A DNA stretch of 64,000 bases from Streptomyces asiaticus (GTDB lineage Bacteria > Actinomycetota > Actinomycetes > Streptomycetales > Streptomycetaceae), in contig NZ_JAGSHX010000001.1 in assembly GCF_018138715.1 (NCBI RefSeq), forward strand, positions 992,001-1,056,000. Direction: 5' to 3'. Both the position numbers and the translations under genes were made by a program. The number at the start of each line of letters is the position of its first letter. Position 1 is the first letter of the stretch. The notes under the pieces were generated by a model, which searched no databases, was not told the DNA's origin, and saw nothing but the letters and a program-made list of their open reading frames with translations. Below are positions 39,339 to 59,784 of this stretch, piece after piece.

Positions 39339-39414
39339 GCGCGCGACGCGAGGAGATTCGGTCAACACGAACGAGAACAAGTGAGAATCCGACAGCTGCA
39401 ATGCGAAAAGACAA
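39339..39414. repeat. 75-bp inverted repeat, left end of the biosynthetic cluster
   Basis: Reverse complement of 59710-59784. A core of 47 bases (39362-39408, starting TCAACACGAACGAGAACAAG) is identical, and the outer part GCGCGCGACGC also matches. The pair lies in opposite orientation about 20.3 kb apart, on both sides of the polyketide genes. Confidence 0.8.
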
Positions 39415-40021
39415 CTCCCCGGACGCTTTCACACGGATGAGGCCGGCCTGGCACCTCGACATCGCGCGTACCAACCAGCCGATACTGGGGACAGTCGGCC
39501 TGAGGGGGCTGGGCAAAGTCTCGGTCACCACCGAGAGGCCCTGCACCTGGCCACGATGGGCGGGGCACAGCGGGTTGGGTGACATCGACCGGGTCTTGAT
39601 CGCCGGAGAGGCGGTAACGGAGCGTGGAGCCCTCGGCCATTCGAGGTCAGTATGGGGTCGGGACAGCGGGGCTGGGTATCGCCAGCAGCCAGGCACAGAT
39701 CAGCACGGAGGTGCTGTCGATAACCGGCTTGTACGGGTCCAGATCGGTCGCCCGGGGCGGCAGCTTCTTCCGGGGCTCAGGCCAGGCCGAACCCAGTACG
39801 GACGTATTCCCACGTGCGGAGGTTCACCTCGGGCACCGACCTCGCGAAGAACACTGTGGATCCCCCTAGGATGCCGCCTCAGCCTTTGACGTCCTCCGGA
39901 CGATCGGCGTAATTTTTCTGCTGAAGTAGATATTGCCGAGCTCTTTTCATGGTGCAAATCGTTTGCCCGTTATGCGCCCCATGCGAGGCGTGCTCGATTG
40001 AACGATGATTTGGAGTGGGTG
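39415..40021. promoter_or_regulatory. upstream region of the methoxymalonyl operon
   Basis: No gene that I can support lies here; small frames on the minus strand are not recognisable. The last 120 bases are AT-rich for this genome (GTAATTTTTCTGCTGAAGTA, TTTTCATGGTGCAAATCG) and should contain the operon promoter. A candidate PAS-LuxR box lies at 39854-39869. Confidence 0.5.
39854..39869. promoter_or_regulatory. candidate PAS-LuxR (PimM-type) box upstream of the methoxymalonyl operon
   Basis: CTGTGGATCCCCCTAG agrees with the published PimM operator consensus CTVGGGAWWTCCCBAG at 13 of 16 positions. It is 150 bases before the first start codon. The match is weaker than the one at 45637 and could be chance. 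Confidence 0.35.
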
Positions 40022-40885
40022 ATGGTGAATTCCCGATCGGACACGATTGCCGTATTCGGTGCGGGGGTTATGGGGCGCAGCATCACCGCACTCGCACTGG
40101 GGCGTGGGGTGCATGTCGTCCTGGTCGACGTATCGGAAGGCGTACTCCAGCAGGCCCGGGCGGAAATCGCCCAGCAGTTGCGGCACGGGCAGTTCATGGC
40201 CGCCTTTCCCGATGGACAGGCGGCTGGGACACTGACCACGACGCTGTCCGGCACGGACGCGGCGGACGCCGGTCTCGTGATCGAGGCGATCACCGAGGAC
40301 GCCACGCTCAAGGCGCGGATCATGGCGGAGATCTCCAGCATGCTCCCCGCCGGGGTCCCGGTGATCACCAACACCTCGGGCATCCCCATCGCCGAACTGG
40401 CGAAGTCGGTCCGGCGCCCCGAGGATCTGGCCGGGGTGCACTTTATGAATCCGGCCTATCTCATCGAGATGGTCGAGGTCATCCGCGGTCCGCAGACCGG
40501 CGACGACGCCATGGCCGCGATCCAGTCCTCCCTGGAGCGGCTGGGGAAGAAGACGGTCGTCGTGCGCGACGCACCGGGGTTCGTCACCAGCAGGCTGCTG
40601 CATCCCATGATCAATGAAGCGGCGAGGGTCGTGGCCGAGGGCACCGCGAGCGTCGAGTCCGTGGACCGGCTGATGCATGGATGTCTCGGTCACCCCACCG
40701 GGCCGCTGCGCACCGCCGATCTGATCGGGCTGGACAATCTCGTGGACGCTCTTCGACTGCTTGCCGAGCGGACCGGAAATTCCACCTTCGAGCCCTGTGA
40801 ACTGCTCATGGAGAAGGTGCGGCGCGGAGATCTGGGGCGCAAGACGGGGCGGGGTTTCTATGACTACGGAAAGGTACTTTCGTGA
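40022..40885 (+). CDS. fkbK: 3-hydroxyacyl-CoA dehydrogenase-like enzyme, FkbK type
   Basis: The 287-residue protein begins MVNSRSDTIAVFGAGVMGRS with the GAGVMG NAD loop, has the family blocks IEAITEDATLKARIMAEISS, TNTSGIPIAELAKSVRRPED and HFMNPAYLIEMVEVIRG, and a C-terminal 3HCDH domain (LGHPTGPLRTADLIGLDNLV, RKTGRGFYDYG). In methoxymalonyl-ACP biosynthesis FkbK oxidises the C2 hydroxyl of glyceryl-ACP. ATG 40022 is chosen over 39998 because GGAG lies six bases upstream. It is the first gene of a five-gene run and overlaps the ACP gene by four bases. Confidence 0.9.
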   Translation: MVNSRSDTIAVFGAGVMGRSITALALGRGVHVVLVDVSEGVLQQARAEIAQQLRHGQFMAAFPDGQAAGTLTTTLSGTDAADAGLVIEAITEDATLKARIMAEISSMLPAGVPVITNTSGIPIAELAKSVRRPEDLAGVHFMNPAYLIEMVEVIRGPQTGDDAMAAIQSSLERLGKKTVVVRDAPGFVTSRLLHPMINEAARVVAEGTASVESVDRLMHGCLGHPTGPLRTADLIGLDNLVDALRLLAERTGNSTFEPCELLMEKVRRGDLGRKTGRGFYDYGKVLS

Positions 40886-41160
40886 ATATGGACCAGCCGA
40901 TCGCCGCTGAGGGGATCGAACGGGCGATTACGGCCTTTGTCTCGGAGCGAGTGAAGGCGGAGGTTCCCGTCGGTCAGGATCTCTTCGATTCGGGGCTGGT
41001 GTCGTCGATGTTCGCGATGGAGCTCGTGGTCCATCTGGAGCAGGAGTTCTCGGTGCAGATCCTGGGGGATGACCTCAAGCGGGACAACTTCCGTTCCATC
41101 GGGGCCATGACCGCTCTGGTGGGGCGTCTGCTCGGCGCCGGGCAATCCGCCGATGCCTGA
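40882..41160 (+). CDS. fkbJ: discrete acyl carrier protein, FkbJ type
   Basis: The 92-residue protein starts at GTG 40882 (GTGA overlap with the upstream stop): VNMDQPIAAEGIERAITAFV. It has the carrier fold with FDSGLVSSMFAMELVVHLEQ, the FkbJ-type variant of the phosphopantetheine site; the modified serine lies in LVSSMF. The protein carries the glyceryl to methoxymalonyl intermediates and hands the finished extender to an AT domain of the PKS. Its 3' end overlaps the acyl-CoA dehydrogenase gene by eight bases. Confidence 0.88.
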   Translation: MNMDQPIAAEGIERAITAFVSERVKAEVPVGQDLFDSGLVSSMFAMELVVHLEQEFSVQILGDDLKRDNFRSIGAMTALVGRLLGAGQSADA

Positions 41161-57700: not shown

Positions 57701-59621
57701 CGGCCGGGTCGCCCGCTGGCTGGCCCGGCAGGGAGCCGGGCACCTGGTGCTGATGAGCCGGAGCGGCCCCGCGGCACCGGGCACGGCCGAGCTGGCGGCG
57801 GAGCTGACCGCCCAGGGGACGAACGTCGAGGTGGTGCGGTGCGATGTGACCGACCGGACCGCCGTGGCCGCGGTGCTCGACCGGCTCTCGGCGGACGGCA
57901 CTCCGGTGCGCGCGGTGGTGCACACGGCGGGTACCCGCGCCCTCGGGCCACTCGCCACATCGGACCTCGCCCATGTCGCCGACGCGGTGCGCGCGAAGGT
58001 GGCGGGCGCCGCGCACCTCGACGAACTACTCGGCGACACCCCCCTGGACGCCTTCGTACTCTTCTCGTCGCTGGCCGGTGTCTGGGGCATCGCCGACCAC
58101 GGGGCACTCGCGGCCGCCGACGCGTATGTGGAGGCGCTGGCGGCACAGCGCGGTGCCCGCGGCGCCCGTGCGACGGCGATCGCCTTCAGCCCCTGGGAGG
58201 AGGCGCGCCCCCTGATGACCCGGCAGGACGGCGAGCATCTCATCCGCAGCGGGATGGCCTTCCTCGACGGCGACGTGGCGCTGGCCGGGCTCGCCCAGGC
58301 GCTGCACGAGCAGCGGACCGCGCTGACGGTCGCCGACATCGACTGGGAGCGCTATCTCTCCGTCGTCACCGCGGCCGGCTCCCGCCCGTTCTTCGACGAG
58401 CTGCCGGAGGCACGGTCCCTCGCCGGGCCCACGGCCCCGAGCGGTGACGGCGGGTTCGCGGAGCGGCTGCGGAGCCTGTCGGCCGGGGAACGGCGGAAGG
58501 ACCTCCTCGACCTGGTGCGGAGCGAGACCGCCGTGGCACTCGGCCACTCGTCCGGCGAGGCGATCGGCGAGCACTCGGCGTTCCGTGACCACGGCATGGA
58601 CTCGCTCGCGGCGATCGACCTGCGCAACCGGCTTGTCGCGGTGCTGGGCAGGCCACTGCCCAGCACCGTCGTCCTCACCCACCCCACCCCGGCCGACCTG
58701 GCCGACCATCTCCTCGACCAACTCGCCGCGCCGCCGACGGAGGCCGGCGCCACCGACGTCGACCCAGCGGCCGACCTGGTCACCCGGCTCCACCGCGACG
58801 CCGTGCGGACGGGCCGGCTGAACGAGGCCCAAACCCTGCTCCTCGACCTCGCCGCCCTCCGGCCCAAGGGCAGCGGGCCCCTTCCGCCCGCCGTGGACCG
58901 GCTCACCACCGGCAGCTCGGGCACCCATGTGGTCTGCGTGGCCCCCATCGTGCCCCTGACCGGACCCCACACCTACTACACGCTCGCCCAGGCGCTCCCC
59001 GGCGACTGGTCCGTCTCCTGCCTGACACCTACCGGCTTCCGCACCGACGAGGAACTGCCCGCCACCCGGGAAACACTCGTCGAAGGGCTGGCCCGAGCCG
59101 TGGTCGCGAGCACCGGCGGCGACACCGCCGAGCCGGTGATCCTCCTGGGCACCTCGTCCGGCGGCATCCTCGCCCACGAGACCGCCCGCCATCTCGCGGA
59201 GCGCGGCACCCCCGTACGGGCGGTCGTCCTCGTGGACACCTACATCCTGGAATCCCCCGCCGCCCGAGCGCTCCAACCCCACCTGTGGCACGGGCTGTAC
59301 GAACGCGAGCACCTCACCGACGGCTACACCGCCACCGATCTGTCCGCCTACGCCTGGATGGAACGGCTCCTGCACACCTGGACCCCCGCGCCGACCCCCT
59401 TCCCGACCCTGCTCCTGCGTGCCTCGGACCCCTTTCCGGCGCCGGACGGGACGGACCCGGTGCCGCCCGACTGGCAGACCGTCCTTCCGCACGTCGCCAC
59501 CACCCTCACCACCTCGGGCGACCACTTCACCCTCATCAATCAGCACGCCTCCGCCACCGCCACCCACATCGCCGACTGGCTCGCCGGGCGGGGGAGGGAA
59601 GTCAACCGTGGATTGCGATAA
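45768..59621 (+). CDS. modular type I polyketide synthase: loading module, two extension modules, thioesterase
   Basis: Domains in order (residues from GTG 45768): KSQ about 40-455 with Q201 in [12 protein letters not shown]0 568-865, GHSQGE and YASH, methylmalonyl type; ACP0 966-1040; KS1 1058-1475, C1219; AT1 1578-1875, GHSVGE and HAFH; DH1 1943-2220, with P1976 where the catalytic His belongs; KR1 2430-2610, LDD motif and Y2579, active B-type; ACP1 2705-2785; KS2 2811-3230, C2978; AT2 3333-3640, GHSQGE and FAAH; KR2 3967-4140, L4114 in place of Tyr; ACP2 4245-4322, S4279; TE 4385-4605, S4463 in GTSSG. Inferred product: a 5-hydroxy-3-oxo triketide. GTG 45825 with GGGGGA upstream is an alternative start. 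Confidence 0.95.
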
Positions 59622-59644
59622 CAGCCATTGGATAGCCTGGCGAA

Positions 59645-59709
59645 ATGCTGACCGAAGTCACCGCGATCCGCTATGTCACGCCCTTGCGGGAGGGTGGATC
59701 GCTGCCGGG
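59645..59709 (+). pseudogene. HipA-family kinase N-terminal fragment
   Basis: From ATG 59645 the frame reads MLTEVTAIRYVTPLREGGSL and then PGV before it meets the inverted repeat at 59710. This is the conserved start of a HipA-like kinase widespread in Streptomyces. The rest is missing, so the cluster boundary element or a deletion has destroyed a chromosomal gene here. Confidence 0.6.
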
Positions 59710-59784
59710 TGTCCTTTCGCATTGCAGCTGTCGGATTCTCACTTGTTCTCGTTCGTGTTGACCGCATCTCATAGCGTCGCGCGC
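59710..59784. repeat. 75-bp inverted repeat, right end of the biosynthetic cluster
   Basis: Reverse complement of 39339-39414, with a 47-base identical core. It directly follows the HipA fragment. It has no coding sense that I can support, and may be the end of a lost insertion sequence or a small non-autonomous element. Confidence 0.8.

Follow-up and report, generated by a model that had tools for sequence, protein, structure and literature searches.

Known methoxymalonyl cassettes serve macrolide or ansamycin assembly lines. Their five enzyme types, as found in fkbG-K of FK520, asm13-17 of ansamitocin and the geldanamycin cassette, are also encoded in the window studied here, i.e., a stretch of 64,000 nucleotides (C1:992001-1056000) from the 11.88-Mb genome of Streptomyces asiaticus; the likeness to the FK520 and asm genes is one of enzyme type. 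While the FK520 and ansamitocin cassettes serve macrolide/ansamycin lines, as set out in PMC6164871, that of the window serves a single three-module polyketide synthase (PKS). PMC10204065 presents VemG/VemH of venemycin as a type I triketide system with a terminal thioesterase (TE) and release as a six-membered oxygen ring, features shared by the PKS in the window, for which the ring release is predicted. Venemycin, according to the same paper, starts from an aromatic unit on an adenylating loading module and is made by two named proteins without any reduction, whereas the PKS in the window is one protein with a predicted KSQ-propionyl start, one reduction and a methoxymalonyl extender. DEBS1-TE, in which a loading module, two modules and a TE yield triketide lactones (PMC6164871), resembles it in layout; DEBS1-TE is, however, engineered and uses methylmalonyl extenders, while the PKS in the window is natural and the ketoreductase (KR) of its second module lacks the active-site Tyr.

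The cluster comprises seven genes, i.e., the cassette in the order fkbK-J-I-H-G, a gene for a fusion protein with a carboxymuconolactone decarboxylase (CMD) fold and the PKS gene, and it is real, intact and conserved. Its product is a prediction, the chemical steps being derived from sequence: with a probability of roughly 0.58, the seven genes would form a complete pathway to a single small triketide lactone with a methoxy group, for which (6R)-6-ethyl-4-hydroxy-3-methoxy-5,6-dihydro-2-pyranone is the most likely structure. An earlier note on this DNA had described the same seven genes as a self-contained cluster whose PKS has both a KSQ loading module and a terminal TE. All seven were located and are intact, the PKS carries the DTGQSSS motif of KSQ as well as the TE, and its closure at both ends together with the retention of the seven genes in differing flanks bears out that the cluster is self-contained.

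The gene set is common to all 14 clusters compared, with its order kept and with losses in two (G359 and Streptomyces sp. MP131-18), and this recurrence rules out chance. The 14 comprise the cluster in the window, those of genomes G359, G164, G383, G055 and G149, and eight from named genomes. A scan of named genomes yielded 10 loci, i.e., those of S. violaceusniger NBRC 13459, Streptomyces sp. S465 (mapped for the upstream half only), S. niphimycinicus (the same cluster as that of G149), Streptantibioticus rubrisoli, Streptantibioticus ferralitis, S. samsunensis, S. corynorhini, Streptomyces sp. RPT161, Streptomyces sp. MP131-18 and S. olivoreticuli. With the CMD fusion as query, some match was found in 107 of 392 genomes of the genus, mostly to one of its two domains, and full-length copies were present in six including the own genome. 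A protein search with the part around the second-module acyltransferase (AT2) gave 1385 matches at E 1e-100; among the 120 of these that were listed, 16 combine an AT2 identity of at least 82% with family length and a TE. These 16 records partly represent the same clusters as the 14 loci (P0099 is the window's own), and others among them come from S. rapamycinicus NRRL 5491, S. antimycoticus and S. autolyticus. In all, the cluster occurs, with variations, in more than 12 other genomes.

The PKS gene (45768..59621, forward strand, with the start at 45768 or slightly downstream) spans 13.9 kb and encodes a protein of 4617 residues that is 82.6-90.3% identical over its full length to five orthologues. 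Pfam matches and motifs indicate the layout KSQ-AT-ACP / KS-AT-DH-KR-ACP / KS-AT-KR-ACP-TE (KS, ketosynthase; AT, acyltransferase; ACP, acyl carrier protein; DH, dehydratase), with a loading module and two extension modules followed by a TE, as expected of a triketide synthase. All domains lie on the forward strand. The loading module consists of the KSQ decarboxylase (45879..47147, DTGQSSS), AT0 of methylmalonyl type (47460..48467, VDYASHS) and ACP0 (48660..48887). Module 1 contains KS1 (48975..50237), AT1 of malonyl type (50475..51407, VSHAFHS), a predicted inactive DH1 (51585..52412) that was absent from the earlier list of domains, KR1 (52635..53627) with active-site Tyr and LDD motif, and ACP1 (53835..54092). 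Module 2 consists of KS2 (54180..55472), AT2 (55755..56717, VDFAAHS) with predicted specificity for methoxymalonyl-ACP, a predicted inactive KR2 (56865..58307), in which the active-site Tyr is replaced by Leu (Leu or Gln in relatives), and ACP2 (58470..58697), followed by the TE (58920..59582, PF00975, with GTSSGG and GDHF motifs). The meaning of the YASH (methylmalonyl) and HAFH (malonyl) AT motifs follows PMC6164871. KSQ, AT2, the ACP sites and the reading frame are intact in the intact records compared. With a decarboxylative loading module at the N-terminus and a TE at the C-terminus the protein needs no docking partner, and no other KS was found within 150 kb on the contig among the KS matches listed. 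The idea that it is a fragment of a larger PKS was rejected on two grounds, the closure of the protein at either end and the occurrence of the seven genes on their own in differing flanks.

The cassette lies upstream on the same strand. It starts with an fkbK-type 3-hydroxyacyl-CoA dehydrogenase (39998..40885; PF02737 5.9e-45, PF00725 6.7e-29), orthologues of which are 82-91% identical in five genomes, and continues with an fkbJ-type discrete ACP (40882..41160; PF00550, 25.0 bits against a cut-off of 20.8) carrying the phosphopantetheine site DSGLVSS, and an fkbI-type acyl-CoA dehydrogenase (41153..42268; PF00441, PF02770, PF02771). The next gene, for an fkbH-type glyceryl transferase/phosphatase (42265..43359), scores 363.7 bits with TIGR01686 FkbH, for which the curated cut-off is 146.65, and its ATG at 42265 overlaps with the stop codon of fkbI; an fkbG-type O-methyltransferase (43475..44149; PF01596 9.2e-64) completes the set. 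FkbH is thus adjoined by an ACP, both dehydrogenases and an O-methyltransferase, the composition of a methoxymalonyl-ACP cassette, and methoxymalonyl-ACP is predicted to be formed by the enzymes FkbG, FkbH, FkbI and FkbK together with the carrier protein FkbJ. All five genes are 53-91% identical to those of two other cassettes in the same genome. A dedicated methoxymalonyl supply for a three-module PKS, as read from these genes, is well supported.

The predicted pathway would begin with AT0 loading methylmalonyl, which KSQ would decarboxylate to propionyl. Module 1 would add malonyl and KR1 would reduce the ketone, the hydroxyl staying in place because DH1 is probably dead in the copy of the window. 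KR1 carries the LDD motif, which by rule marks a B-type KR and hence predicts the 6R configuration. Module 2 would add methoxymalonyl through AT2 and would keep the ketone, since KR2 lacks the Tyr, so that the chain on the ACP would be 5-hydroxy-2-methoxy-3-oxoheptanoyl. Attack of the 5-hydroxyl at the TE would release a six-membered lactone, C8H12O4, and the CMD fusion probably acts on, or binds, the released product, which is the least certain step. The propionyl starter and the sequence of one reduced and one unreduced extension had already been proposed in the earlier note and agree with the methylmalonyl-type AT0 behind KSQ, an intact-looking KR1 and a KR2 without Tyr. What weighs against the dihydropyranone comes from the nearest relative of the TE, from the CMD protein, from DH residues and substitution rates, from the kinship of AT2 and from losses within the cassette, and is taken up below along with the readings that it favours.

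By sequence the TE may release either lactone or acid, because its best solved relatives are the TEs of tautomycetin (3lcr) and, almost as close, DEBS; the lactone, which the earlier note had also suggested, is to be seen as a prediction. The tautomycetin enzyme, the closest TE of known structure, is one that we take to be a hydrolase. If the TE of the window likewise hydrolysed, the beta-keto acid would lose CO2, perhaps aided by the CMD protein, to give an open-chain methoxy ketone, e.g., 4-hydroxy-1-methoxyhexan-2-one. The conservation of a CMD-fold protein in 14 of 14 clusters fits this idea, and the CMD protein is without an assigned reaction in the lactone pathway. We nevertheless regard hydrolysis as unlikely, since the DEBS TE is nearly as close a relative and engineered DEBS1-TE gives triketide lactones (PMC6164871), and since the CMD-fold superfamily has several activities and the protein of the cluster carries YVWAHHH where the consensus of 66 aligned homologues reads YEWGQH.

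The CMD-fusion gene (44220..45509, reverse strand) encodes a CMD-fold protein with a C-terminal nuclease-like domain and is divergent from the PKS gene; the region between them (45510..45767) is, as suggested by its sequence, a likely promoter region. The open reading frame (ORF) extends to 45776, and the gene start was placed at 45509 by conservation and a Met codon. Assignment to the CMD/AhpD fold is based on PF02627 (27.8-28.3 bits against a cut-off of 23) and on a structural model of residues 1-200 (pLDDT 92.4), the best matches of which are AhpD/CMD folds. In Foldseek, TM scores (query) are 0.66-0.75 for the first 18 PDB matches, which are AhpD/CMD structures and the debrominase Bmp8. The full-length model is poor (mean pLDDT 45.4). 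AhpD peroxidases carry a redox CxxC motif. None was found in the six aligned CMD sequences, in which YVWAHHH stands at that place, and an identity as AhpD peroxidase was rejected on this ground. In Streptomyces sp. MP131-18 and S. olivoreticuli the protein ends after about 200 residues.

The C-terminal domain is 31-35% identical to free-standing Streptomyces proteins and is one that we take, from its motifs, to be nuclease-like. All seven free-standing homologues contain LDH...EVK, and T and V replace D and K in the 12 of 12 cluster copies compared. A Pfam search of the domain gave only a sub-threshold Shedu match, in one of three homologues, and we read it as a putative dead nuclease-like domain without a Pfam match. 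In other Streptomyces and in Kitasatospora a related CMD domain, 44-73% identical, is fused to an MBL-fold hydrolase (P0017, P0019, P0022-P0028). The idea of a lactone-acting partner suggested by such fusions was followed with cassette and PKS queries around the two nearest other CMD homologues (G350 and G174, which may or may not be MBL fusions) and was dropped, as the 40 kb around them gave only the CMD gene.

With regard to the reductive loop of module 1, the family is heterogeneous. In DH1 of the window Pro replaces the catalytic His of HxxxGxxxxP, which is present in the five orthologues first compared, and the YGP motif is changed as well. Among the 14 loci, the motif is deleted in Streptantibioticus ferralitis and RPT161, the Asp is lost in MP131-18, and no DH match was obtained for S. 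olivoreticuli, S. corynorhini and Streptantibioticus rubrisoli. The 16 proteins include two with His-to-Pro (one being that of the window), two with a deleted motif, two with Asp-to-Glu, which may keep some activity, and one without DH. Both catalytic residues, His and Asp, are kept in 7 of the 14 loci and 9 of the 16 proteins, so that the hydroxy product may not be the usual one of the family. The Tyr of KR1 is kept in 12 of 14 loci, being Cys in Streptantibioticus ferralitis, while KR1 is absent in Streptantibioticus rubrisoli; KR2 is without Tyr in all 14 loci and all 16 proteins. For these two Streptantibioticus species, sequence would predict a 2-pyrone instead. PMC10204065 describes release of triketides as pyrones, possible even without a TE, and lactones as the outcome of reduction.

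A tree was built from 29 family tips, some of them duplicates, with one outgroup. On it the DH changes fall in six places, or four without the Asp-to-Glu changes: the window with P0104, MP131-18, the clade of S. olivoreticuli, Streptantibioticus and RPT161, S. corynorhini, and the two Asp-to-Glu records. Support is 1.0 for the window-P0104 and the S. olivoreticuli-Streptantibioticus-RPT161 clades, and 0.35 and 0.56 for two deeper nodes. S. corynorhini is the basal tip, and its lack of DH may for this reason be old. In pairs of orthologues the ratio of nonsynonymous to synonymous substitution rates (dN/dS) is 0.43-0.77 for DH1 and 0.40-0.74 for KR2, values that are only suggestive because those for the ACPs (ACP0/ACP1/ACP2, up to 0.81), the TE (0.37-0.55) and, in one pair, KR1 (0.73) are also raised. 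Taken together, the module 1 reductive loop appears to be undergoing erosion across the family.

It is conceivable that DH is active in most strains, that the usual family product is a 4-ene-3-one and that the copy in the window represents a decaying version, as the retention of both residues in half of the loci and the change of two DH motifs in the lineage of the window would allow. We consider this rather doubtful: the lesions or absences of DH are spread over several places in the tree, one of them basal and possibly the older state, the dN/dS of DH is as high as stated, KSQ, AT2, the ACP sites and the reading frame have stayed intact, and an enone could not close a six-membered lactone. 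The earlier proposal of a 5-hydroxy-3-oxo skeleton, which needs a silent DH1, consequently stands for this genome, because the catalytic His of DH1 is gone; it may not extend to the half of the clusters that keep both DH residues. A broader reading, which we put forward tentatively, is that minimal one-protein methoxy-triketide lactone synthases form a natural family that would hold starter, methoxymalonyl extender and release fixed while the reductive loop is edited in evolution (KR with DH, KR with dead DH, KR alone or no loop). Sister species might in this way switch between dihydropyranone and pyrone, and the product would be a small diffusible signal rather than a scaffold for an antibiotic.

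The FA[AG]HS-type motif of AT2, VDFAAHS, is present at every one of the 14 loci and in each of the 16 chosen protein records, although the latter count is not independent because the records were chosen by AT2 identity. Two further clusters of the own genome served as controls. A seven-module geldanamycin-like PKS (C6:8280-8340k) matches, for the domains compared (AT, DH and KR), the order in a geldanamycin PKS tabulated in PMC8880029. Its AT motifs read YASH, FAGH, YASH, YASH, FAGH, HAFH and YASH, with FAGHS in modules 2 and 5 only, and the table annotates the ATs as mm, mx, mm, mm, mx, m and mm, modules 2 and 5 being the methoxymalonyl ones. The cassette copy of this cluster is 53-66% identical to that of the window. 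The second control, C6:9855-9935k, is a large multi-protein assembly line (11 KS, 11 ATs) with a single FAAHS AT that is 68-72% identical to AT2, whereas its other ten ATs reach at most 51%; the adjoining K-J-I-H-G cassette is 77-91% identical to that of the window (90.5% for fkbI). It thus contains the closest FAAHS AT and the closest such cassette in the genome, while its other domains are at best 44-71% identical to the PKS of the window.

In the AT tree AT2 groups with the FAAHS AT of C6:9855-9935k (support 0.997), and the geldanamycin-like FAGHS ATs group with the methylmalonyl ATs of their own PKS, from which it follows that the FAGHS motif tracks the annotated unit rather than descent. 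AT2 does not group with these FAGHS ATs over the whole sequence, and it is 48% identical to them versus 53% to AT0 of the window. Kinship over the whole sequence is thus no guide to methoxymalonyl, and it is the motif, together with the neighbouring cassettes, that carries the assignment. AT2 has a dN/dS of 0.19-0.32 in seven orthologue pairs, similar to the KS domains (0.15-0.27). Use of methoxymalonyl by AT2, as proposed in the earlier note, is on these grounds well supported, not proven; in the two control clusters FAAHS/FAGHS tracks annotated methoxymalonyl modules or a cassette.

An alternative is that AT2 takes hydroxymalonyl or another unit, leaving methoxy out of the product at least where fkbG is missing. 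The gene is missing at its place in G359 and also in S465, the motif indicates an AT class only and overall identity does not single out known methoxymalonyl ATs. With the motif behaving as described in the control clusters and with fkbG kept in 13 of the 14 clusters, we find this improbable. Moreover, the step might be supplied in G359 by FkbG homologues encoded elsewhere, one at 60% and one at 58%, the latter with a stop codon inside the matched part. The losses of fkbG (G359, S465) and of fkbH and most of fkbI (MP131-18) are read as probably derived.

To delimit the cluster, the flanking ORFs of the 14 clusters (flanks of 1.6-10 kb, GC filter) were grouped by clustering. Shared neighbours were confined to G055, G149, G164 and G383, four genomes that are co-linear to either side of the cluster; the links beyond these four are two pairs on the upstream side of the window's cluster, one of Tn3-type and one of IS110-type transposases. 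As only transposase genes recur in flanks outside the four co-linear genomes, K-J-I-H-(G)-CMD-PKS is the conserved unit. The genes downstream in G055, G149, G164 and G383 for an MMPL transporter, a two-component pair, an FAD monooxygenase and an MFS protein were rejected as cluster genes because they were not found in the downstream flanks (1.7-9 kb) of the other ten clusters and because the four genomes are co-linear. That the triketide is an acyl group, transferred by the TE or a different enzyme to a scaffold of other origin, would suit a genome rich in further clusters, as its 151 KS matches (with 150 scored out of 208 candidates) indicate. It is highly unlikely for a unit that has neither an acyltransferase nor a scaffold gene and whose seven genes stay together in differing flanks, where the ORFs called include no additional conserved gene.

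The outer coordinates given in the earlier note, 39339-59784, are the exact ends of a 75-bp inverted repeat (95%) with arms at 39339-39413 and 59710-59784, whose sequence corresponds to an end of a Tn7-like (TnsABC/TniQ) transposon. The arm has only two copies in the genome and is matched in 33 of 392 genomes of the genus, the own one included, at E 0.001. Plasmid NZ_CP108679.1 carries this end immediately beyond genes of the TnsA, TnsB, TnsC and TniQ types, and TnsA-like genes adjoin it in L068, L075 and L076; the cassette as query against plasmids gave one partial match only, covering 16% of the query. An alignment of 15 rows, of which the window and one other record each contributed two, is variable beyond the GACA side, and this side was for that reason taken as the terminus. 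Both inferred termini point towards the cluster, and the homology shared with S. violaceusniger NBRC 13459 ends no more than 3 bases from either; outside the right arm there is no match to the element side of other copies. A reading of the cluster as Tn7-like cargo was rejected because of this orientation of the ends, and no Tns gene adjoins them. The arms look like remnants beside the cluster and not like its conserved borders. A weak TnsA-like remnant (27419-27606, 54% in two short pieces) has an orientation that fits a decayed element owning the left end. Upstream of the cluster lies a cas3-like ORF of 436 residues (37900-39210) with an HD domain and the first part of the helicase only, apparently truncated. 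Directly downstream, an ORF with HTH_21 and integrase-core matches (59991-61067) is presumably an IS3-type transposase.

The earlier note had called a cassette for so small a product unusual. No description of the cluster was found in open-licence PubMed Central papers, and a term search of PMC9206652 gave no occurrence of the family gene of S. rapamycinicus, which agrees with this view; on the other hand, the cluster is not rare and is present, e.g., in S. rapamycinicus NRRL 5491. If the prediction is true, the PKS is a natural equivalent of engineered DEBS1-TE, with a methoxymalonyl extender and its supply genes in 20 kb, and offers a very small self-contained setting for methoxymalonyl loading, for the loss of KR and DH and for the choice of a TE between lactone and acid. 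The clusters without fkbG (G359, S465) constitute a natural test of the contribution of FkbG. The orthologues would then represent a natural series of reductive-loop variants in which the predicted chemistry is otherwise fixed, and a product would be assigned to an orphan PKS of well-studied strains such as S. rapamycinicus NRRL 5491.

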